This document shows positions 47,328 through 56,735 of a stretch of 64,000 bases of DNA, in pieces. Under the pieces are notes generated by a model that was given only the letters and a program-made list of their open reading frames with translations, was not told where the DNA came from and did not search any database. The stretch covers positions 310,001-374,000 of the forward strand of contig NZ_AP017422.1 in assembly GCF_002355595.1 (NCBI RefSeq), written 5' to 3'. Each line of letters opens with the position of its first letter. Position 1 is the stretch's first letter. Origin of the DNA: Filimonas lacunae. Lineage in GTDB: Bacteria > Bacteroidota > Bacteroidia > Chitinophagales > Chitinophagaceae. The position numbers and the translations under genes are program-made.

Positions 47328-48707
47328 ATGCAACCCAAGCTGTTCTTAACATCCCTGCCTTTAATGGCAGCTATTGCCATTTCTAAACCGGCTTCTTCAC
47401 AGGGGCTGATTATTAGCAATGGTGGCTACCTGGTAGCCAATACCGCTCATATCGTGATTAATGAAGGTAGCCTTGTCAACTCCGGCACCTTCGCTGCCGG
47501 TGGCGGAACTGTAGATTTTACCGGTGCTTTGCCTGCTTCTGTATCAGGTACATCTTCCACATCCTTTAACAATATTGTTCTAAGCAAAGCGGGTAATACC
47601 CTTACACTGTTACAACATATCTATGTAGCAGGTTCAGTAGGCCTGGGCAGTGGCAATATTGATTTAAATGGATACAACCTGGATTTGGGACCTACAGGCG
47701 TATTAAATGGTGAAACTGCCAGTTCCCGTGTATTGGGGTCTAACGGCGGATTTATTATGAGGTCGGCTGAGATCACTGCTTCCGGTAGCAGCGTTAATCC
47801 AGGAAACCTGGGTATGTTGTTTACACCTGCTTCTAATTTAGGGCACACCGTTATTAAACGTGGACATCAATCGCAACAGTTGGGTGGTGCCTTTGGCATT
47901 AACCGCTTTTTTGATGTTACCGCAACTAATGGCACAACGGCTAAAGAAGATGTTACATTCCGGTATTTTGATGATGAACTCAATGGGGTGGCAGAGAAAG
48001 AGCTGGGCGTGTACTATGTAACGGCTGCCAATACAGCAGGTACTTTACAAACGCAAAAAGCTTTTGATTCAGTGGCTAATACCATTGAAATCAATAATGC
48101 TGCTTTTGCTGGTAAGTATGTGCTGGCCAGTAATATTTCTGATCCAGCACGTGCTACAGATCTGGTAGCAACTTTAATTGGTAACAAGGCTGATCTTACC
48201 TGGACTACCTTATATGAAATCAATACTGATCACTTTGAGTTGGAACGCATAGTTGATAAAGGTTTTTTTCAGTATATAGGCAGCTTACCTGCAGCCACAA
48301 CAGCTACCTCAGCTACCAATTATTACTTTACCGATCCGCAACCTGTTGAGGGGCCTTATACTTATCCTAGCCCGAGGTATTACCGCTATAAAGTATTTTT
48401 TAAAGATGGCAGTTACCGTTATTCAAATACGGCTTCTGTTGCGCCCGTAGGATATCCTAATTCTGTATTGCAGGTAAATCCTAATCCTACTACCGGCCCT
48501 GTAAATGTGAAGTTCAGCAGCTTTATACAGCAGAAGGTGTACCTGGAAGTAGTGAGCAATGCTGGTGTGATAGTAGCCCGCCAGGAAATGAATGCTGTGG
48601 TGGGACCAAACAGTATCTCCTGTGATATTAGTCATGTAACGCCGGGAGTTTATTATGTGCGCATGGTGAACATTTCCAGAACTGCCTATATGATAGTAAA
48701 ACAATAA
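47328..48707 (+). CDS. Secreted protein with T9SS type A sorting domain
   Basis: 459 residues. Signal peptide MQPKLFLTSLPLMAAIAISKPASSQ. The body is beta-rich (repeated short strands such as GGYLVANTAHIVINEGSLVN) with a fibronectin-like segment (PARATDLVATLIGNKADLTW then TTLYEINTDHFELER) and ends in the type IX C-terminal target domain: VNPNPTTGPVNVKF ... GVYYVRMVNISRTAYMIVKQ. Such proteins cross the outer membrane by type IX secretion and are attached to the surface or released. No enzymatic domain recognised. Followed after 31 nt by the collagen-like gene, probably in one transcript. Confidence 0.82.
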   Translation: MQPKLFLTSLPLMAAIAISKPASSQGLIISNGGYLVANTAHIVINEGSLVNSGTFAAGGGTVDFTGALPASVSGTSSTSFNNIVLSKAGNTLTLLQHIYVAGSVGLGSGNIDLNGYNLDLGPTGVLNGETASSRVLGSNGGFIMRSAEITASGSSVNPGNLGMLFTPASNLGHTVIKRGHQSQQLGGAFGINRFFDVTATNGTTAKEDVTFRYFDDELNGVAEKELGVYYVTAANTAGTLQTQKAFDSVANTIEINNAAFAGKYVLASNISDPARATDLVATLIGNKADLTWTTLYEINTDHFELERIVDKGFFQYIGSLPAATTATSATNYYFTDPQPVEGPYTYPSPRYYRYKVFFKDGSYRYSNTASVAPVGYPNSVLQVNPNPTTGPVNVKFSSFIQQKVYLEVVSNAGVIVARQEMNAVVGPNSISCDISHVTPGVYYVRMVNISRTAYMIVKQ

Positions 48708-48738: not shown

Positions 48739-50976
48739 ATGCGACTTAAAAGACTCATTCTAGGCTTTTTACTGGCATGCACGTTACAGGTTTCTGCGCA
48801 AAACGTAGGTGTTAATGCCGATGGTTCGCTGCCTGATAATAGTGCTATGCTGGATGTAAAAAGCACGGTAAAAGGTATACTGATACCGAGAATGCTTGCT
48901 ACGCAAAGACTTGCTATAGTAAGCCCCGCAACCGGCTTATTGGTGTTTCAGACAGATGGCACCAGTGGCTTTTATTTTAACAAGGGAACCACCGTTGCTC
49001 CTGATTGGAGTTACCTGGGTGCGCTAGGCCCTGCAGGCACCAACGGCTCAAACGCCTTGGTGAAAACATCATCAGAAGCTGCTGGTGCTAATTGCGCTAC
49101 AGGTGGTTCAAAAATTGAAGTTGGTAACGACTCCAATAACAATGGAGTGTTAGATGCCACTGAAATTAATATTACACTTACCATTTACATATGTAACGGA
49201 GCCGTAGGCCCAACCGGGCCTACGGGAGCCACAGGTGCTACCGGCGCTACTGGAGCCACAGGTCCGCAAGGTATTCAAGGTGTTCAGGGTGTTCAGGGTG
49301 TAACCGGCGCAACCGGCGCTACTGGTGCAATAGGTGCTACGGGAGCCACAGGTGCTACCGGTCCGCAAGGTATCCAAGGCATTCAGGGAGTAACCGGCGC
49401 AACCGGCGCTACTGGTGCAATAGGTGTTACCGGAGCCACAGGTGCTACCGGTCCGCAAGGTATCCAAGGCATTCAGGGAGTAACCGGTGCAACCGGCGCT
49501 ACTGGTCCAACCGGTGCTATTGGCGCAACAGGTGCTACCGGTCCGCAAGGTATCCAAGGCATTCAGGGAGTAACCGGCGCAACCGGCGCTACTGGTGCAA
49601 TAGGTGCTACCGGGGCAACAGGTGCTACCGGACCGCAAGGTATCCAAGGCATTCAGGGAGTAACCGGCGCAACCGGCGCTACTGGTGCAATAGGGGCTAC
49701 CGGGGCAACAGGTGCTACCGGACCGCAAGGTATCCAAGGCATTCAGGGAGTAACCGGTGCAACCGGCGCTACTGGTGCAATAGGTGTTACCGGTGCAACA
49801 GGTGCTACTGGCCCGCAAGGTATTCAGGGCATTCAGGGAGTAACCGGCGCAACGGGTGATACTGGTCCAACCGGTGCTATTGGCGCAGCTGGCCCAACTG
49901 GTCCACAAGGCCCGCAAGGTATTCAGGGGGTAACTGGAAGCACAGGTTCTATTGGTCTCACTGGTCCAACTGGTGCTACTGGGCCTGCCGGTCCTATTGG
50001 TCCCCAGGGGCCACAGGGCATTCAGGGAGTAACCGGCGATACAGGTGCTACTGGTCCTCAGGGTATTCAAGGCATTCAGGGGGTACCTGGTGCTACCGGA
50101 CCGATTGGCGCCACAGGTGCTACCGGTCCGCAAGGTATACAAGGTGTTCAGGGTGTTACGGGGGCAACTGGGCCTACCGGTCCTGCGGGAGCCACTGGTC
50201 CTACTGGAGCACAAGGTGTTGCAGGCCCAACTGGTCCTGCCGGAGCCACCGGAGCTACAGGTGATGGCTTTTCCAACGGAACCACAGGCGGCCAGATGAT
50301 TTTAACAATGAGTACTGCTCCCTATGCTCCAGGTGTACCGGTTTCGATGACTGGGGACGCTTCACTTACAAGCACTGGTGTAATTACCATCGGAAGCAGT
50401 AAAATCACCACCACAAAAATTGCAGATAATAGTGTTACAGTAGGAAAAATTTCTACCACAAGTGGAACAGCCAGCTCTACTACTTTTTTAAGAGGGGATG
50501 GTACCTGGTCTACGCCAAGTGGTGGTGGAAGTGGTGTAATAGGTGTTATTGCTGCCAATACAAATTCTCAGAATGTAGCTGTTGCTTCTACCAGTTCTTT
50601 TGGTAGCTTAACATTCAATAGCTATGGTGCACCTGGTACCGGGTCTTTTGACGGGTCAACTTATACAGCGGCACTTGCAGGTGTATATATGATAACTGTT
50701 AACTTAACTACCACCTATACTGCTACTGGCATTGCCCGGCCGGGAGTAAACTACACACCATCCGGTGGTTCAGCTACTGTTATAGCATGGGGAGTGGGCG
50801 GACCTTTTAGTAACGTTAATTTTCCGGCAACAAGTACTTCTACAGGTATGGTTACTACTGTATATTCACTGGCAGTGGGCGATAAAATTAATATTGTTAC
50901 TGCCAATAACGTTGCCAATCAGTTACCAGTATCTACAGATGGTACAACAAGACTTTCTATTATCAAGCTGTTTTAA
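48739..50976 (+). CDS. Collagen-like triple-helix surface protein with C1q/TNF-like head
   Basis: 745 residues. Signal peptide to about residue 21 (QVSAQN); a head region typical of Bacteroidota fibre proteins ([20 protein letters not shown]); a DUF7151-like segment ([18 protein letters not shown], then [14 protein letters not shown]); then uninterrupted Gly-X-Y from about 154 to 508, roughly 118 triplets, mostly GAT, GPQ, GIQ and GVT. The last 150 residues, after [11 protein letters not shown], form a jelly-roll of C1q/TNF/BclA type ([20 protein letters not shown]). Threonine in the Y position, as in BclA, is a possible O-glycosylation site. No T9SS tail. Expected to form trimeric fibres at the surface. 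Repeats are also strong in DNA (see 49291-49830). Confidence 0.88.
49291..49830 (+). repeat. Six 90-bp tandem repeats inside the collagen-like gene
   Basis: Units of exactly 90 bp begin at 49291, 49381, 49471, 49561, 49651 and 49741, each starting ATTCAGGGAGTAACCGG (the first GTTCAGGGTGTAACCGG) and coding ten Gly-X-Y triplets. Further, diverged copies extend to about 50270. Copies differ at few bases, so recent duplication or homogenisation is likely, and copy number could vary between strains. Confidence 0.95.
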
Positions 50977-50993
50977 GTAATAAGCATAGATAC

Positions 50994-51031
50994 AATAAAA
51001 AAGCATGGCTGAATGGCCATGCTTTTTTATT
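50994..51031. terminator. Bidirectional intrinsic terminator
   Basis: A perfect 16-bp stem (AATAAAAAAGCATGGC and complement) with a 6-nt loop, between the converging collagen-like and tail-collar genes. Confidence 0.92.
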
Positions 51032-51044
51032 ACTATAAATGAGT

Positions 51045-51650
51045 TTAATTCCTGGAAGGGAACACTCCATACACACACACTATATAATTGACAGCAGTGT
51101 ATGGTTGCATGTTATCATGCGGCAGTGAATTCCCGAAGACGGATAGTGTTATAGTAGGGTTAGGTCCTGCAAAACCGGTAACAGGTACACTGCTCGCTGC
51201 CAGCGGCACTCTGGTGCCGGCAGTGGCAGTAGCGTAAAAGGCTGTAGCGGCATCCGTTCCCAGGTTGTTGTTAACAGGGGTAGTGGCCCCCGCGGTGGTG
51301 GCAGCTTTCATGGAAACTGACGCACCTACTGCTGTGTTGTTTAAGGTAAAGGTAGGTGTATGTGAGTGCTGCGGCAGGTTGGCCGTTGTTAGTGTTACCT
51401 GTTCAGTACCCATTACCTGGCCTATAACAACATTGGCCCCACCTGGTCTTTGTCCAGTTCCTATAGGTACGCGACCGCCTAAAGCAGGCAGTAAAAATGA
51501 GTTGACGCCATCGCCGCCAAATGTGGTGCCCATGACAGCGTATACTGTTTGAAAGTCATTCAGGTTCAGTTGCTGTCCCTGGCAAAGCATCCAGCCAGTC
51601 GGGGCAAAAGTGCCGCCAAACATGCGTATTTCTCCAATAGTTCCTTGCAT
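51045..51650 (-). CDS. Phage-tail-collar domain protein 1 (MDP family)
   Basis: 201 residues. A small tail-collar domain at the N terminus, MQGTIGEIRMFGGTFAPTGW then MLCQGQQLNLNDFQTVYAVM and GTTFGGDGVNSFLLPALGGR, as in microcystin-dependent-protein (MDP) family members. A threonine/alanine-rich central segment is followed by HDNMQPYTAVNYIVCVYGVF and the terminal PSRN. No signal peptide. Last of three paralogous genes on this strand; closed by the terminator at 50994-51031. Role unknown; related proteins are called tail fibre proteins, but there are no other phage genes nearby. Confidence 0.87.
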   Translation of the reverse strand: MQGTIGEIRMFGGTFAPTGWMLCQGQQLNLNDFQTVYAVMGTTFGGDGVNSFLLPALGGRVPIGTGQRPGGANVVIGQVMGTEQVTLTTANLPQHSHTPTFTLNNTAVGASVSMKAATTAGATTPVNNNLGTDAATAFYATATAGTRVPLAASSVPVTGFAGPNPTITLSVFGNSLPHDNMQPYTAVNYIVCVYGVFPSRN

Positions 51651-51680
51651 AAAAATATCTTTTAAGAAGTGAGTGTTAAT

Positions 51681-52304
51681 TTAGTTTCTGGATGGAAATA
51701 CTCCATACATGCAAATAATATAATTCATGCCCAATACCGGCTGTATGTTGGAGTGTGCGGTAGTGCTACCTACAGAGGCTACTGTAACACTGGGGGTGCC
51801 GGGCGTAAGGTTACTGATAGTAACTGCATCGCTGGCCAACGTTTTGAAAACAAGCGACGGGCTAGGTGCCACATAGATTTGTGCTGAAAAAGAACCATCA
51901 TCAGCAGCCAGTAAGGCACCGGAAGGATTGGTAATTGTGCCCGCCTCTCCTGTACCATTAACAGAATAATTTATAGTACCGCTGGCAGAAGAAGCGGTAA
52001 CCGTAGCGGCATGGTTGTGTATAGGCATTTCGTCAAGAATAAGCGTGTGCGTTGGTTCGCCACCTACTTGCCCCAATGTATAATTACCACCATCTGCAGT
52101 GCTGGTGCCAGTACCCACCGGAATACGTCCTCTTAAATCGGGTAAGGCAAAATTGGTGGTGCCATTACCACCATAGGTGGTTCCCAGTAACGCAAAAAGC
52201 GCCTGGTTGGTAGATATATTCAGTAGTTGTCCTAAACAAAGTGCCCATGTTTTTGGGGCAAAATTGCCTGTGAAGCAGCGTATTTCAGCCATTGTTCCGT
52301 CCAT
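51681..52304 (-). CDS. Phage-tail-collar domain protein 2 (MDP family)
   Basis: 207 residues with the same plan as its neighbours: MDGTMAEIRCFTGNFAPKTW, LCLGQLLNISTNQALFALLG and TTYGGNGTTNFALPDLRGRI, a variable TASSASG-rich middle, and HSNIQPVLGMNYIICMYGVF ending PSRN. The start is ATG 52304, aligning with MDGT of paralogue 3; 20 further in-frame codons upstream are excluded. It has 30 nt to paralogue 1 and 37 nt to paralogue 3. No signal peptide. Confidence 0.87.
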   Translation of the reverse strand: MDGTMAEIRCFTGNFAPKTWALCLGQLLNISTNQALFALLGTTYGGNGTTNFALPDLRGRIPVGTGTSTADGGNYTLGQVGGEPTHTLILDEMPIHNHAATVTASSASGTINYSVNGTGEAGTITNPSGALLAADDGSFSAQIYVAPSPSLVFKTLASDAVTISNLTPGTPSVTVASVGSTTAHSNIQPVLGMNYIICMYGVFPSRN

Positions 52305-52341
52305 AGATATTGAATGTAGGGTGAGTGAATGTGGTGAGCAA

Positions 52342-52944
52342 TTAGTTTCGTGCAGGGAAATCACCTGACAGGCAGATGATTACATTCAGCGCCAGGTAAG
52401 GTTGCATGTTGTTATGTGGCAAAGATCTGCCGGCTGTTGCCAGTGTTACTCCGTTAATCTGCGGTGCTGTAACATTGGAAACAGTGATGGTGTCTTGCGC
52501 CATCGCTGCAACTGGTGCAGTGGCTGGGGCATAAAAACTGATAGAAGAATCTGTACCCAGGTAATTATTTTCCGGAGTCAGGCTGTTGGCGCTGTTCACG
52601 GCATTGATGGTAATGGTGGCCGATCCTGGTGTGGAATGTCCGGCTGTTGTTACATGGGTGTGTAAAGGAGTAGTGCTGGCGTCCAGCGTTACATTTACTG
52701 AACCGGCTTGCTCGCCTAGTACATATGTTTGTGTGCCTGGCGATGCGCCTGCACCCACAGGGGTTCTTCCTGCCAGGTTAGGTAGCGCAAAGGTACTTGA
52801 TCCGTTGCCCCCATAAATACTCCCAATAAGTGAGAATAATGCAGTGTAGCGACTAACCGGCATCACCTGGCCCTGGCAAAATGCCCAGCTGCGAGGTGCA
52901 AAGCTTCCGGCAAATAACCTGATTTCACCGACTGTTCCGTCCAT
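52342..52944 (-). CDS. Phage-tail-collar domain protein 3 (MDP family)
   Basis: 200 residues: MDGTVGEIRLFAGSFAPRSW, AFCQGQVMPVSRYTALFSLI and GSIYGGNGSSTFALPNLAGR, then VPV-type glycine-rich strands, and HNNMQPYLALNVIICLSGDF ending PARN. The first of the three in transcription order, 33 nt after the formyltransferase gene. Differs from the other two over most of its middle, so the three are old duplicates, not a recent triplication. No signal peptide. Confidence 0.87.
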   Translation of the reverse strand: MDGTVGEIRLFAGSFAPRSWAFCQGQVMPVSRYTALFSLIGSIYGGNGSSTFALPNLAGRTPVGAGASPGTQTYVLGEQAGSVNVTLDASTTPLHTHVTTAGHSTPGSATITINAVNSANSLTPENNYLGTDSSISFYAPATAPVAAMAQDTITVSNVTAPQINGVTLATAGRSLPHNNMQPYLALNVIICLSGDFPARN

Positions 52945-52977
52945 AGATATTTGTTTTATGATGAAGAAATAAAATAA

Positions 52978-53907
52978 TTAATAAAATATTTCGCCGGCCT
53001 GCCATCCCATTTGAGATAGCTTGCTGCCGGATAAATACCCTTCACGTAGTTGCAAAATGGTAATGCGGATAAAAGTATTGTTGGCGCAAGCTGCTATAAT
53101 GCCATGCGTACTGTCTATGTGTACTATAGTGCCAGGCACTACCCTGTCCGGAGGATTGTTGATGTTGATGGGCAATACTTCCAGCAGGCTCACCTGTATA
53201 TCTCTAAAACGGGTGATGGCACCGCCATACCTGGGATTGGTGGCATTTACCAGTTGTATCATCTCATCGGCTGTTTGTTGTTCCCATTGAATGGTTAGGT
53301 CGGTAATGCCGGGTTTGGAAAAATACAGGGCCGGAGACGGCGTTTGTGGTGTAGCAGGTTGCTTTGGGTGTTGTAAGCTTTGCGATAACTTATTAAACAA
53401 AGTGGCCATCGCATGTCCTAACCGTTCACAATGAATGCCATAAGTTTCCAATGGCATCAGGGGTATTTCCTGTATACATACTACAGGGCCTGCGTCAATA
53501 TCACTGGTCATCACATGTATAGTAATGCCACCCTGTTTTTCGCCGTTACGCAATTGCCAGAACACCGGGTCGGCTCCCGCATATTGTGGAAGCAAGCCAA
53601 AATGTGCATTCAGGCATCCTTTGGAAGGGAGAGTAAGTATGCTGTCCGGTAGTTTCCAGGGAAAGGTAAGCGTGAGTAATAGCTCGGCCTGCAGGTTGGT
53701 GATTAATGTACTTACTGTATCGGCTAATTGCTTTTTACTGGTAACATATATCTTGTCGGGCGCAATCATAACTTGTGCCAGCGCATTTTGTAAAAAGGCT
53801 GCTGACTTGTCGGGAATAACCACCGCGCCTAACTGACCTGTTTGTTGCAGGTGCATAATAGTAGGGATAGCTAATGTGTCGGAGTTGCAAAGGATGATAG
53901 TAGTCAT
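52978..53907 (-). CDS. Formyltransferase-family enzyme, not housekeeping Fmt
   Basis: 309 residues with the formyl-THF transferase fold. The catalytic triad N100, H102 and D138 is present (LNAHFGLLPQYAGADPVFWQ and HVMTSDIDAGPV), as in Fmt, ArnA and GART. The N-terminal Rossmann part starts TTIILCNSDTLAIPTIMHLQ rather than with the usual Fmt opening, and a C-terminal OB-like domain follows after about 190. The acceptor is unknown: candidates are an amino sugar or another small amine, or a protein residue. One base separates it from the binding-protein-like gene upstream, which ties it to the tail-collar group. Confidence 0.8.
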   Translation of the reverse strand: MTTIILCNSDTLAIPTIMHLQQTGQLGAVVIPDKSAAFLQNALAQVMIAPDKIYVTSKKQLADTVSTLITNLQAELLLTLTFPWKLPDSILTLPSKGCLNAHFGLLPQYAGADPVFWQLRNGEKQGGITIHVMTSDIDAGPVVCIQEIPLMPLETYGIHCERLGHAMATLFNKLSQSLQHPKQPATPQTPSPALYFSKPGITDLTIQWEQQTADEMIQLVNATNPRYGGAITRFRDIQVSLLEVLPININNPPDRVVPGTIVHIDSTHGIIAACANNTFIRITILQLREGYLSGSKLSQMGWQAGEIFY

Positions 53908-53908
53908 G

Positions 53909-54994
53909 TTACACGCACAGGTATGGATTCATCCAACCAAAGTTTACTTCGTGAACTAATGATTTCATCGAATGGTATTCCATCTCAAATCCGGGCAGTG
54001 AGGCTATTTCCTGTACGTTATGTGTTGCCTGACCGGCTTTGATGTCATTACGCGTTATCACCATATCATAGTTGCCGGCCATAGTGGTTTGCTGCTCATT
54101 TGCCAACTTTAGCCCGGCATGGAACTGCTGCAATTGTTCGTTTAAATTTCCGCCGGCAGCGGCTGCTTTAGCCAGTAAAACACCAGTTTCATAGCCCAGG
54201 TGATAAAAGGCACGGTTGGCTTCTATGGCCGTGTTATTATAATGGGAGGCTGTAGTATGTATAGTAAAGTCGTCATGCAAGGTTTCCAGTGCGGAGGTTA
54301 AATAAGGAAGACCTATAAACTGCGTTTTTTTGTGCCATCCCCTTGCTATGCATTCATTGAGAAATAAAGTAGTTTCTGTGCCGCAGAAAGTGGCAAACAC
54401 AAAATCGGGCTGATAGCTTTCGAGATAGGGGAATATCACAGATACATCGGCTAATGAGCCGGATGGCGGCATCGGGGTTACTGAAAAAGACCATTGCGCA
54501 TTGGCATCGGCATGCATCATCCCCGTATGAAACATCTGTGAAAAAGCATAGCCAGAGTCATACACAGAGCTTACATACATTCCTTTCTTTCCAAAATTTT
54601 GTACGCCCCAGTTGCCAATGGCCCAGGCATGCTGCCATAAGTGCATGGAATTAACGTGGGTGTAGGTGCTCAGCTTGCCTACATTAGGGATATGTGAGCC
54701 CAGTTCATTGATGATAAAAGGTATTTTGTTTTTGTTAAACTGATCGGCAATGTCATCTGCTACTTTGTGCGATACCACGCCGGTTACGGCATCTACTTCG
54801 TGATAGTTGAAAAAACGGCTGCAGGCTTCTTCTGTTTGTTTTAAACTGCCTTGTCCTATAAACTCTTTCACCAGTTCAAGGGTAATATCTGTGTCTTGTG
54901 AACGGAAGCCTTCTTTTACACCCCGCTCAAAATCCTTGCTGACAGGAAGGATAGAAGAGGTAGGTAATAACAGACCCAGGGAGATGGTTTTCAT
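53909..54994 (-). CDS. Periplasmic-binding-protein-like protein without signal peptide
   Basis: 361 residues with type I binding-protein fold: ISLGLLLPTSSILPVSKDFE, DAVTGVVSHKVADDIADQFN, KIPFIINELGSHIPNV and GMYVSSVYDSGYAF resemble the branched-chain amino acid/urea/amide-binding group. The N terminus MKTISLGLL goes directly into the first beta-strand; there is no signal peptide or lipobox, so the protein should stay in the cytosol. No ABC transporter genes are nearby. It may bind a small ligand for the neighbouring enzymes or act as a sensor; function unknown. Confidence 0.75.
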   Translation of the reverse strand: MKTISLGLLLPTSSILPVSKDFERGVKEGFRSQDTDITLELVKEFIGQGSLKQTEEACSRFFNYHEVDAVTGVVSHKVADDIADQFNKNKIPFIINELGSHIPNVGKLSTYTHVNSMHLWQHAWAIGNWGVQNFGKKGMYVSSVYDSGYAFSQMFHTGMMHADANAQWSFSVTPMPPSGSLADVSVIFPYLESYQPDFVFATFCGTETTLFLNECIARGWHKKTQFIGLPYLTSALETLHDDFTIHTTASHYNNTAIEANRAFYHLGYETGVLLAKAAAAGGNLNEQLQQFHAGLKLANEQQTTMAGNYDMVITRNDIKAGQATHNVQEIASLPGFEMEYHSMKSLVHEVNFGWMNPYLCV

Positions 54995-55025
54995 CGAAAT
55001 ACTGTTTACTGATTTATGATTGGGG

Positions 55026-55068
55026 GTAACCTGTTTTTACTGTTAAGCTGAGTAGTAAAAACGGGTAC
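55026..55068. promoter_or_regulatory. Imperfect hairpin between binding-protein and sulfotransferase genes
   Basis: GTAACCTGTTTTTACT and AGTAAAAACGGGTAC pair over about 13 bases with one bulge and one mismatch, loop about 12 nt. It lies in the largest gap of the tail-collar operon (86 nt) and could set relative expression by attenuation or RNA processing. Confidence 0.4.
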
Positions 55069-55080
55069 TGGTTATAAGGG

Positions 55081-56034
55081 TTACATTCTTAGCTTTTCCA
55101 GCTGGTGATAGCCCTTAAAGGCTTTTGCCAGGTAGCCGGCAGTTTCATCAATTCCGGTAGCAGGAAGCGCGAATTTCTTTTCCGGCTCTTTTGCGTCAAA
55201 GCCGCATCGTTGCATAATATCCTGCTGTTCTTTTTCTGTAAAAGGGGTGTGGGTTAATTGATATACTTTTTCTGTTATAGCACCAAAGCCTTCATTATAA
55301 TTCACGAGATAAGCTAAAGGGTCTTTGGCGTGAATCTGCTGCATCCGCTGATAGTACTGTTCCAGTATGGCAGCTACATAAGCGTGCGTGCCTTCCTGGT
55401 AAGCAGGTAGCTGCCCCAGGTTAAAAATTTCACTTTCAATAACACCTGGTACCGCATGCATCCCTTTCTTTTTTTCCTGTGAAGCAACTACTTCATCAGG
55501 CCTTCTGTATAAAAGAATAAATGGTACATCCGGATAATGTGCCCGTATTTCTTCATAAAAGAACAGGTGCCAGCTATCTGCTTTTATAAACAGTCTTTCT
55601 TCTGTGCCCGTGCGCTTTTGTGCATAATAAGAAACCGCATGTGGCAGCAGGTGCGACAGGTCTTTGCCTCCCTGTTTATACCGGGCGCGCAACAGATCAT
55701 CAAAAAAAGGAACTTCTGCCAGTACTATATGGTTGGGGTTCAATCCCAGTAATTGTGACAGCAGGGTAGAACCACAGCGGGATACATGGAATATAATGGC
55801 TGCAGGTGGTAAAGCATTGTCAGGGGCCGACCATCCGGGTAAAACATCTACCGCACTGCTATAGCGTTTGCCAAAGCCGTTTTCAGGCAAGGATTTGCAT
55901 TTAGATATGGTTTCGTCAAAGAAAGGATCGGTATAAGGTAATGTGCCCGGATATATCCATCGGGCATCTGTTCCATTATACAACTGGTACGGCAACCAGC
56001 CGGCAAGCGTGGAAGGTTCGGTTATAGGCGTCAT
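55081..56034 (-). CDS. Sulfotransferase-family protein
   Basis: 317 residues. The PAPS 5'-phosphosulfate loop is SRCGSTLLSQLLG (about 85-97) and the 3'-phosphate binding motif is FILLYRRPDEVVASQEKKKG (about 172-191), in the order and spacing of sulfotransferases. Cytosolic, no signal peptide. Its substrate is unknown. It lies 11 nt after the hydroxylase gene and heads the tail-collar cluster with it. Sulfotransferase-fold proteins may bind PAPS or, rarely, other nucleotides, so activity should not be assumed. Confidence 0.8.
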   Translation of the reverse strand: MTPITEPSTLAGWLPYQLYNGTDARWIYPGTLPYTDPFFDETISKCKSLPENGFGKRYSSAVDVLPGWSAPDNALPPAAIIFHVSRCGSTLLSQLLGLNPNHIVLAEVPFFDDLLRARYKQGGKDLSHLLPHAVSYYAQKRTGTEERLFIKADSWHLFFYEEIRAHYPDVPFILLYRRPDEVVASQEKKKGMHAVPGVIESEIFNLGQLPAYQEGTHAYVAAILEQYYQRMQQIHAKDPLAYLVNYNEGFGAITEKVYQLTHTPFTEKEQQDIMQRCGFDAKEPEKKFALPATGIDETAGYLAKAFKGYHQLEKLRM

Positions 56035-56045
56035 AAATAAAATAA

Positions 56046-56735
56046 TTAGGAAAGCGATTTTAACTGCGCTTCCAATGCATTTGCCAATGCGTCTGTTTGT
56101 GCTGAGCGATGGGTTCTTAAAGCTGCAATAGTGGCTAAGGTGTTTTCGATACGGGAATTGTCTATGCCTTCACTTTTTTGCGCACGGGCAAACAGTTCCT
56201 TTATCCAGTCATTCACTACACAATCAATTACCAGGTGTATCCTGTCCGAAGGTCCATTGTTTTCAACGCTATGTGTCAGATTAGCGTTAATATACCAGCA
56301 CTGGCCTTCCTGCATGGGTATGATATCCTGCTCGCAATAAAAACAAACTTTATCATTAGTAAACACAGGTATGTGTAATCTTGCTTCACCGCTTTCAAAA
56401 CAAAGCTCATGATCGCGGTGAGGTTTTATAAGGGCGCCACTTTTTAAATTCAACAACCGCACTGACATCACACTGCACTGTAAAGAAGCTACAAAGCTGT
56501 GGATGGCCGGGCAGCTTTCCATTAAAGGTGTATCGGTGTATTCCTGCCCAACATGTGTAATATCGGCAATGATATTTTGAGCAGAACCACCCGGCGATCG
56601 AAGCGATACAACATTCCAGTCACCTACATAATGATAGGTGTTGTGATGGGGCTTCCATTGGGTAGCCAGCTTCAACACTTCCTGTTGAATCAGGTGTATG
56701 TCTGCCGGTAAGGGCACGTGGGCAAAACGAATCAT
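56046..56735 (-). CDS. Asp/Asn beta-hydroxylase-family 2-oxoglutarate oxygenase
   Basis: 229 residues. The Asp_Arg_Hydrox cupin: iron ligands H106-R-D108 (KPHRDHELCFESGEARLHIP) and H155 (GQCWYINANLTHSVENNG), with R165 (SDRIHLVIDCV) for 2-oxoglutarate. Family members hydroxylate aspartate, asparagine or arginine side chains in peptides or free amino acids. First gene of the group, preceded by a TAGATTTG box (56759-56766) and separated from the upstream NPP gene by its terminator. The C-terminal tail (about 175-229) is helical and without recognised motif. Confidence 0.85.
   Translation of the reverse strand: MIRFAHVPLPADIHLIQQEVLKLATQWKPHHNTYHYVGDWNVVSLRSPGGSAQNIIADITHVGQEYTDTPLMESCPAIHSFVASLQCSVMSVRLLNLKSGALIKPHRDHELCFESGEARLHIPVFTNDKVCFYCEQDIIPMQEGQCWYINANLTHSVENNGPSDRIHLVIDCVVNDWIKELFARAQKSEGIDNSRIENTLATIAALRTHRSAQTDALANALEAQLKSLS

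Follow-up and report, generated by a model that had tools for sequence, protein, structure and literature searches.

A seven-gene cassette in Filimonas lacunae

This study concerns a cassette of seven genes on the minus strand of Filimonas lacunae, at positions 51045-56735 of our window, the 64,000-nucleotide stretch of DNA that we analyzed (RefSeq assembly GCF_002355595.1, contig NZ_AP017422.1, positions 310,001 to 374,000). Read in order of transcription, the cassette encodes HYDX, an Fe/2-oxoglutarate (2OG)-type hydroxylase of the Asp_Arg_Hydrox family (56046..56735; Pfam 4.3e-18, as for all families in this list); SULT, a sulfotransferase (55081..56034; Sulfotransfer_3, 4.5e-08); PBP, a protein with a type-I binding-protein fold (53909..54994; Peripla_BP_6, 1.9e-16); FMT, an Fmt/ArnA-like formyltransferase (52978..53907; Formyl_trans_N, 1.8e-19); and a trio of tail-collar proteins, COLL 1 (52342..52944; Collar, 2.3e-25), COLL 2 (51681..52304; Collar, 1.7e-26), and COLL 3 (51045..51650; Collar, 9.2e-21). 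The gaps between successive genes are 11, 86, 1, 33, 37, and 30 nt. A first-pass annotation of this DNA had described seven genes on one strand with gaps of 1 to 86 nt, and every open reading frame (ORF) was found where, and in the order in which, it had placed them. For COLL 2 we used the ATG start; an alternative GTG start at 52364 lies in the open frame too. The collar domain (PF07484) scores 88.7, 92.4, and 74 bits in the three COLL proteins, against a curated cut-off of 24.

The active sites of the three enzymes had been called intact, and the residues named are indeed present and invariant in aligned relatives: H106, D108, and H155 of HYDX in 10/10 hydroxylases; the SRCGST loop of SULT, which presumably binds 3'-phosphoadenosine-5'-phosphosulfate (PAPS), in 7/7 sulfotransferases; and N100, H102, and D138 of FMT in 16/16 formyltransferases. 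The nearest solved relatives of FMT are methionyl-tRNA formyltransferase and ArnA (1fmt, 5.8e-41; 2bln, 6.7e-38), and SULT has no solved relative at 1e-3. HYDX had been labeled an Asp/Asn hydroxylase; the family match stands, but the label is a family name only, and its two solved relatives are proline-related, L-proline cis-4-hydroxylase (4p7w, 1.6e-15) and an entry named proline oxidase (1e5r, 3.2e-11).

Recurrence of the cassette in Chitinophagaceae

COLL is present in 37 of 117 genomes of the window's family, Chitinophagaceae. A survey of relatives for shared order had been proposed with the first-pass annotation, and the complete seven-gene order recurs in five of these genomes (the window and the loci that we number L020, L021, L022, and L023), which argues that the order reflects more than chance. 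At three of the five (L020-L022), a gene resembling adenosine 5'-phosphosulfate (APS) kinase stands between SULT and PBP on the opposite strand; Pfam named its homologue in L148. L024 has the same gene set, with a single COLL and with HYDX on the other strand. Many family loci consist of one to three COLL, PBP, FMT or no FMT, and then a large protein on the same strand. A second locus in the window's own genome (L030, G000:C1:5173963-5175764, at 5.17 Mb) carries a single COLL together with PBP, followed by a 2627-aa protein that has a CHU_C tail as well as Big_2 repeats. The family sample comprised 40 stretches, leaving out G033, G112, and one G006 site. Throughout, genes were called by script as longest ORFs, which are rough in G+C-rich loci, and duplicates were kept (L049 duplicates L124, and L062 is a near copy of L068).

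A collar-protein module in nine phyla

The COLL trio with its partners was found in nine phyla: 80 loci from named genomes fall in eight, and plasmid records add Deinococcota. These 80, each with at least one COLL trio, are the best 80 of 574 relatives among the matches listed, ranked by likeness to one COLL from a locus with GNAT, an acetyltransferase gene, and the sample therefore favors the GNAT type. Forty further Bacteroidota loci came from 38 genomes hand-picked among the matches listed, and L080, with no usable COLL frame, was dropped. The commonest cross-phylum form runs giant gene, COLL A, COLL B, COLL C, GNAT, with the giant sometimes on the other side, and gene order and strand recur across phyla. 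COLL also occurs on plasmids: 72 plasmid records contain it at 157 places, and many of them have three. At eight plasmid loci the deposited annotation reads "tail fiber protein" three times, beside GNAT in six and FMT in one; the Deinococcus QL22 plasmid locus (L067) has neither annotated.

Within four genes of COLL at 128 loci, GNAT occurred at 71, FMT at 21, both at none, and PBP at 35. As a distance control, GNAT-type genes numbered 69 at gene distance 1-3, 2 at distance 4, and 1 at 5-10, while ORFs of at least 900 aa numbered 96 at distance 1-4 and 4 at 5-10. We use the term COLL-trio module, defined in this analysis, for a set of three COLL in tandem that has GNAT or FMT no more than four genes away; in the window, FMT adjoins the three tandem COLL. 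That a conserved COLL module exists across phyla is, to our minds, close to certain, and the cassette is one form of this widespread, apparently non-viral bacterial module built around three phage-tail-like proteins. An acyltransferase usually accompanies the trio, and PBP and a giant secreted repeat protein often do.

Two further genes recur near COLL. A protein of 400-590 aa adjoins the last COLL in L061, L062, L068, L077, L086, L087, L100, and L105, with FG-GAP and tectonin matches, below the cut-off, in L062 only. A small protein with an HEAGH motif (c5), a candidate protease, lies near COLL in L025, L033, L036, L041, L047, L048, L169, and L178.

Distinct paralogues in a fixed order across phyla

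Exactly three consecutive COLL occur in 88 loci. On the COLL tree, position within the trio takes 36 changes, against a shuffled mean of 123.5 (0/200 shuffles as low), a count to which near copies in the sample contribute; three COLL outside 140-260 aa were left out of this tree. The window's COLL 1 falls in a starred group with COLL 1 of L020-L023, and COLL 2 likewise with COLL 2 of those loci; for COLL 3 the nearest rows are COLL 3 of L020-L023, with no starred group. In a split-half model test on 69 cross-phylum loci, the A-B-C order was read in 60 and one COLL of each type in 67, and the A, B, and C consensus sequences differ along the chain, N-terminus included. Distinct old paralogues kept in a fixed order across phyla suggest a hetero-oligomer, which we consider probable for loci outside the Chitinophagaceae type.

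Within the window's family, the same claim is not supported. The family test set had one COLL of each type in only 7/19 loci (chance 6/27, 22%), and one of those seven loci, L049, duplicates L124, which was among the loci used for training. The window trio reads C-A-B in the type models, with small margins of 14, 8, and 11 bits. In family loci the three COLL have diverged or been shuffled.

Likeness to phage fibers and the origin of the trio

C23, H95, and H97 are invariant in 88/88 COLL, and the COLL sequence profile matches the cyanophage A-1(L) fiber (2.1e-12) and T4 gp12 (2.2e-05). An AlphaFold2 model of COLL 1 from 73 sequences reached a predicted local distance difference test (pLDDT) score of 71.7 and a predicted template modeling (pTM) score of 0.49, with residues 1-60 confident (pLDDT blocks 88-95) and a poor middle; folded from a single sequence, COLL gave a pLDDT of 33. 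A Foldseek search with this model placed T4 gp12 and the cyanophage A-1(L) fiber at the top ranks, with overall template modeling (TM) scores of 0.32-0.38 and, for one gp12 entry, 1.5 A over 53 columns. Matching viral models include an Orpheovirus collagen-like protein with a collar domain and a Pithovirus collagen-repeat protein, to which the collagen-like gene next to COLL in the window (described below) is a parallel.

COLL matches phage tail families, and one published study describes, in a Pseudomonas, an island that encodes a 1618-aa protein along with a collar-sulfotransferase-acetyltransferase group, which is ascribed there to a phage (PMC2745422). Both points would suit a cassette that was a prophage remnant or recent phage cargo. 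Against this, the ten larger flanking ORFs (40.0-63.6 kb; smaller ORFs were outside the scan) contained no structural phage family when compared with PHROGs, the relatives of COLL 1 in phages (346 places in 311 records) are <36% identical among the matches listed, PBP has no phage match, and the COLL trio is spread over nine phyla. Given the flanks, the distance of the phage relatives, and the nine phyla, we rejected a prophage origin of this kind as highly improbable, in agreement with the first-pass annotation.

A different viral connection would be that the COLL trio supplies the fibers or the tip for a contractile injection system whose own genes lie at another site of the genome. The window's genome has sheath/tube sites near 2.47 and 3.18 Mb (G000:C1:2467203, 3176223), and HYDX co-occurs with sheath at p 0.043. 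In Acaryochloris, a published study (PMC11633204) shows an acetyltransferase and three "phage tail collar" genes, their locus tags neighboring, falling together between light conditions in strain MBIC11017, and in strain MU13 the acetyltransferase and 2/3 collar genes stand in the same list as a tail-sheath and a baseplate gene, induced under the same condition, a co-listing that leaves room for COLL to act in trans with a contractile system. On the other side, both sites in the window's genome lie about 2 Mb or more from both COLL loci, the nearest sheath/tube genes being about 2.1 Mb from the cassette. Sheath matches (E 1e-3) occur in 14/37 COLL genomes versus 17/80 others (p 0.073), only 14 of these 31 among the 117 genomes exceeding the family cut-off, and 23/37 COLL genomes have no sheath match, including both genus mates with the full cassette. 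We therefore regard a contractile-system role as quite unlikely.

Acyltransferases and the N-termini of the collar proteins

The acetyltransferase and formyltransferase types seem to exclude one another. GNAT and FMT never occurred together within four genes of COLL across 168 loci (the 128 plus 40 more): the 41 family loci had FMT in 20, GNAT in 3, and both in 0, and the 40 further Bacteroidota loci had GNAT in 6, FMT in 9, both in 0, PBP alone in 5, and none in 20. GNAT is nearest to N-terminal acetyltransferases, RimI matching it below the cut-off.

The two types of loci also differ in the second residue of COLL. A small residue (A, S, T, G, C, V, or P), with which removal of the initiator Met is expected, stands there in 184/200 COLL at GNAT loci versus 7/76 at FMT loci. 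COLL starts in this set followed a script rule; 27 COLL without an acceptable start were dropped, and later more. In the first set, 14/184 GNAT-locus rows broke the small-residue pattern, 12 of them starting MDPF. As predicted activities, acetylation of Ala/Ser by GNAT and formylation of Met by FMT fit the direction of this difference, and COLL may be acylated at the N-terminus, a tentative reading to which we give slightly less than an even chance.

HYDX and SULT form a lineage-specific unit

HYDX was found in 19/117 family genomes, 18 of them also with COLL (Fisher p 4e-10), and SULT in 14/117, 13 of them also with COLL (p 6e-7), the exception, G086, showing fragments only. SULT and HYDX share 13 genomes, 13 of the 14 with SULT (p 6e-12); these p values are uncorrected for kinship. 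The first-pass annotation had held that enzymes occurring apart from collar genes in relatives would speak against its proposal, and the reverse was seen, with COLL in 18/19 HYDX and 13/14 SULT genomes compared to 37/117 overall. In 10/19 genomes, HYDX and COLL are no more than about 9 kb apart; in eight, HYDX is far off or on another contig, and in draft assemblies the two may still be linked; G097 has no COLL. Outside the family, HYDX stands near COLL at L164, L178, L195, and the proteobacterial locus L145.

Ten stretches (L148-L157) were sampled where HYDX or SULT copies stand apart from COLL. L148 and L149 read HYDX-CysC-SULT, with APS kinase (CysC) in the middle, and HYDX adjoins SULT in L150 and L152, the L150 HYDX appearing only in the genome search, split over two frames. 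The two genes are fused in L151, as they are in L048. L156 has CysC, SULT, and a different 2OG-type oxygenase, and L153-L155 and L157 have HYDX without SULT. Together, the pairing, the fusions, and CysC support a single pathway in which hydroxylation precedes PAPS-dependent sulfation. HYDX and SULT are an add-on unit of their own, restricted to certain lineages. Judged from these arrangements, HYDX and then SULT rather likely act on the same group; that this group sits on COLL or on the large partner is conceivable, at somewhat under an even chance.

The genes might also be neighbors without a joint function, for instance in a shared island of surface genes; accessory genes do differ between loci and partly follow lineage. 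Yet HYDX and SULT copies that are unlinked or on another contig still track COLL by genome, and order and strand recur across phyla, so we hold this explanation to be improbable.

PBP and peptide-modifying neighbors

PBP begins straight in its first strand and, judged by eye, lacks a signal peptide; its conserved C-terminal tail reads GWxNPYLC, and W354 and N356 of this tail are invariant in 22/22 proteins. Its solved relatives are ATP-binding cassette (ABC) substrate-binding proteins (4evq, 4.4e-43) and, more weakly, the amide sensor AmiC (1pea, 1.7e-07). The seven genes include no permease or ATPase of an ABC transporter. PBP relatives at E 1e-10 occur in 13/117 family genomes, all with COLL, and at E 1e-5 in 13/296 phylum genomes, all 13 among the 77 with COLL. 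In L060, L067, L093, and L178, PBP carries a twin-arginine-like signal at the start (by eye) and a variant of the same tail at the end, and PBP can therefore be an exported protein. A tail of the type SGWxNxYLC (window 53909-53941) is found on most of 48 other PBP ORFs, past the region that solved binding proteins match.

HYDX, SULT, and FMT or GNAT could instead make a modified amino acid or peptide, which PBP would bind as an AmiC-like sensor or receptor and COLL would carry or present. Such a role would agree with the proline hydroxylases nearest to HYDX, with the fold that PBP keeps of solute-binding proteins and AmiC, and with the genes beside COLL in some loci: PqqD, B2, and AsnB-like in L164 and L066, PqqD and AsnB-like in L194, and PqqD and B2 in L067. 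It agrees less well with the likeness of GNAT to N-terminal acetyltransferases or with the cassette itself, which has no transporter among its seven genes and whose gaps of at most 86 nt leave no space for a separate precursor. We consider this small-molecule or peptide role unlikely. The recurrence of modifying genes would point to modification of a protein or peptide rather than to a metabolite made in free form.

PqqD with B2 and/or AsnB-like genes stands beside COLL trios in three phyla (L164, L066, L194, and L067). L164 joins all three with HYDX, SULT, and FMT, and in L194 a 138-aa ORF resembles B2 by eye only.

Large partners and genes flanking the cassette

An ORF of at least 900 aa lies within five genes of COLL in 84/129 loci, some of which are truncated by contig ends. 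We scanned three large family proteins, which have Big_2 or SprB repeats. In one of them the SprB repeats pass the cut-off and a Por tail is present; another combines a Por tail with a borderline SprB match; the third has a CHU_C tail. In L038 a PorP/SprF gene follows the giant. The first-pass annotation had called the cassette "self-contained", a description that we find unsupported in view of these large ORFs, of HYDX and SULT as a lineage-specific add-on, and of the common form elsewhere, three COLL plus GNAT.

The giants before COLL A in L082, L085, L089, L091, L101, L102, and L112 share a C-terminal stretch (by eye), running approximately from LRQRQxTTVRLPGYxG to GGxxCPxP; it may serve in docking or sorting.

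In the window, no same-strand giant of at least 900 aa stands next to COLL; instead, a 745-aa collagen-like protein is encoded convergently (48739..50976, plus strand; Pfam Collagen, 8.1e-54), beside a gene for a protein with a type IX secretion tail (47328..48707, plus strand; Pfam Por_Secre_tail, 6.3e-08). A GXY-repeat protein stands beside the cassette in L021-L024 and not in L020, and the Por_Secre_tail protein is kept beside the collagen-like gene in L021, L022, and L024. The collagen-like protein as a required substrate of HYDX and SULT was dropped as a candidate, since 9/14 HYDX/SULT loci have no collagen-like neighbor. Between the two convergent units, a hairpin with A and T runs (50997..51028), read directly, is a possible two-way terminator; it is absent from the output of the terminator scan, which totaled 7 versus 6.2 in shuffles. 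Promoter and terminator counts at the window are at the shuffled level and were not used as evidence.

A proposed function for the module

Gene content and order, the identity of the paralogues across phyla, co-occurrence, and the conservation of active-site residues were all observed directly, and on them we base the following proposal. The cassette would be a Bacteroidota form of a domesticated, non-viral phage-fiber module. The likeliest assembly of its three COLL would be a hetero-oligomer, probably trimeric as in the tip of the T4 short tail fiber, with the invariant His-x-His binding a metal. Together with a large secreted protein encoded nearby (the collagen-like protein here, giants with Ig, SprB, or similar repeats elsewhere), this assembly could form a surface tip or adhesin. 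A dedicated acyltransferase may block the COLL N-termini, GNAT by acetylating the Ala/Ser bared by Met removal and the Fmt-like FMT by formylating the retained Met. In the window's lineage, HYDX would create a hydroxyl on the assembly or its large partner for SULT to sulfate, and PBP might be a structural or ligand-gating partner. The published co-regulation of an acetyltransferase gene and three collar genes in Acaryochloris (PMC11633204) would fit this picture.

Several observations weigh against this proposal, beyond the mixed COLL types in the family and the HYDX/SULT loci that have no collagen-like neighbor. At 22/128 loci, none of GNAT, FMT, or PBP lies within four genes of COLL. The AlphaFold2 model is only partly confident, and its PDB matches reach a TM-score of 0.38 at most. 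COLL has no signal peptide by eye, as is the case for most Bacteroidota PBPs, which leaves export unexplained. FMT was seen in Bacteroidota only, so that lineage confounds its exclusion of GNAT. Small second residues also occur in 15/30 COLL at PBP-only loci and in 29/47 where GNAT, FMT, and PBP are all lacking, and Ala N-termini therefore need no adjacent GNAT; Herpetosiphon aurantiacus (L133), for one, has Ala N-termini and PBP but lacks GNAT within four genes. At FMT loci the residue-2 exceptions are L042, L046, L180, L184, and L186, and the kinship-corrected N-terminal covariation (3 supported pairs, median p 0.5) is not significant.

Weighing both sides, we regard a domesticated fiber-tip assembly that works with a large surface protein, is acylated at its N-termini, and in some lineages is hydroxylated and then sulfated as a possible but still tentative reading of these sequences, a little short of evenly balanced. 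The strictest version, a three-part phage-derived tip in nine or more phyla whose dedicated N-acyltransferase has co-evolved with the N-terminus, with peptidyl hydroxylation and then O-sulfation in some lineages, strikes us as doubtful. Were the proposal true, the "tail fiber protein" genes of many bacterial genomes would be a conserved cellular machine rather than phage debris, a surface machine hidden under that label, and FMT would carry out a purpose-made N-terminal formylation of mature proteins, for which we know of no other bacterial system. The module also joins families of uncertain role, namely stand-alone collar proteins, a signal-less PBP with a fixed tail, and an orphan formyltransferase, hydroxylase, and sulfotransferase.

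Comparison with known systems

In the open-access literature that we searched (subscription journals were outside the scope), we found the COLL module nowhere treated as a system, and two papers mention some of its parts. Any newness would concern the entire gene system; every part falls in a known family. The names MdpB and COG4675, "microcystin-dependent protein", are applied to the COLL family, a link that we assume to be correct; they denote a family of unknown function, in contrast to the multi-gene system described here. COG4675 appears among soil proteins in a listing within one study (PMC5579227).

Some COLL trios resemble lasso peptide clusters in having PqqD, B2, and AsnB-like genes beside them, with B2 of L066 and L067 over the NCBIfam cut-off and PqqD and the cyclase below it. 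The window's seven genes include no PqqD, B2, cyclase, or precursor. The module giants share SprB repeats, Por tails, and PorP/SprF with SprB-type gliding adhesins and type IX secretion; to our knowledge, neither collar proteins nor the module's enzymes belong to the SprB system as it is known. Serine-rich-repeat adhesins have dedicated glycosyl- and acetyltransferases and are alike in principle, as a surface protein with its own modifying enzymes. The module differs in using other enzymes and tail-fiber parts, and the likeness is one of principle rather than of compared homology.

COLL also resemble phage fiber tips (T4 gp12, 1ocy and 5iv5; cyanophage A-1(L) fiber, 8kec), whose collar region is alike by sequence. 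The T4 gp12 fiber tip holds metal, and the HxH motif of COLL aligns with the HxH of the A-1(L) fiber. Unlike these tips, COLL are stand-alone proteins of about 170-230 aa that come as three paralogues, with an acyltransferase of their own and without phage genes.

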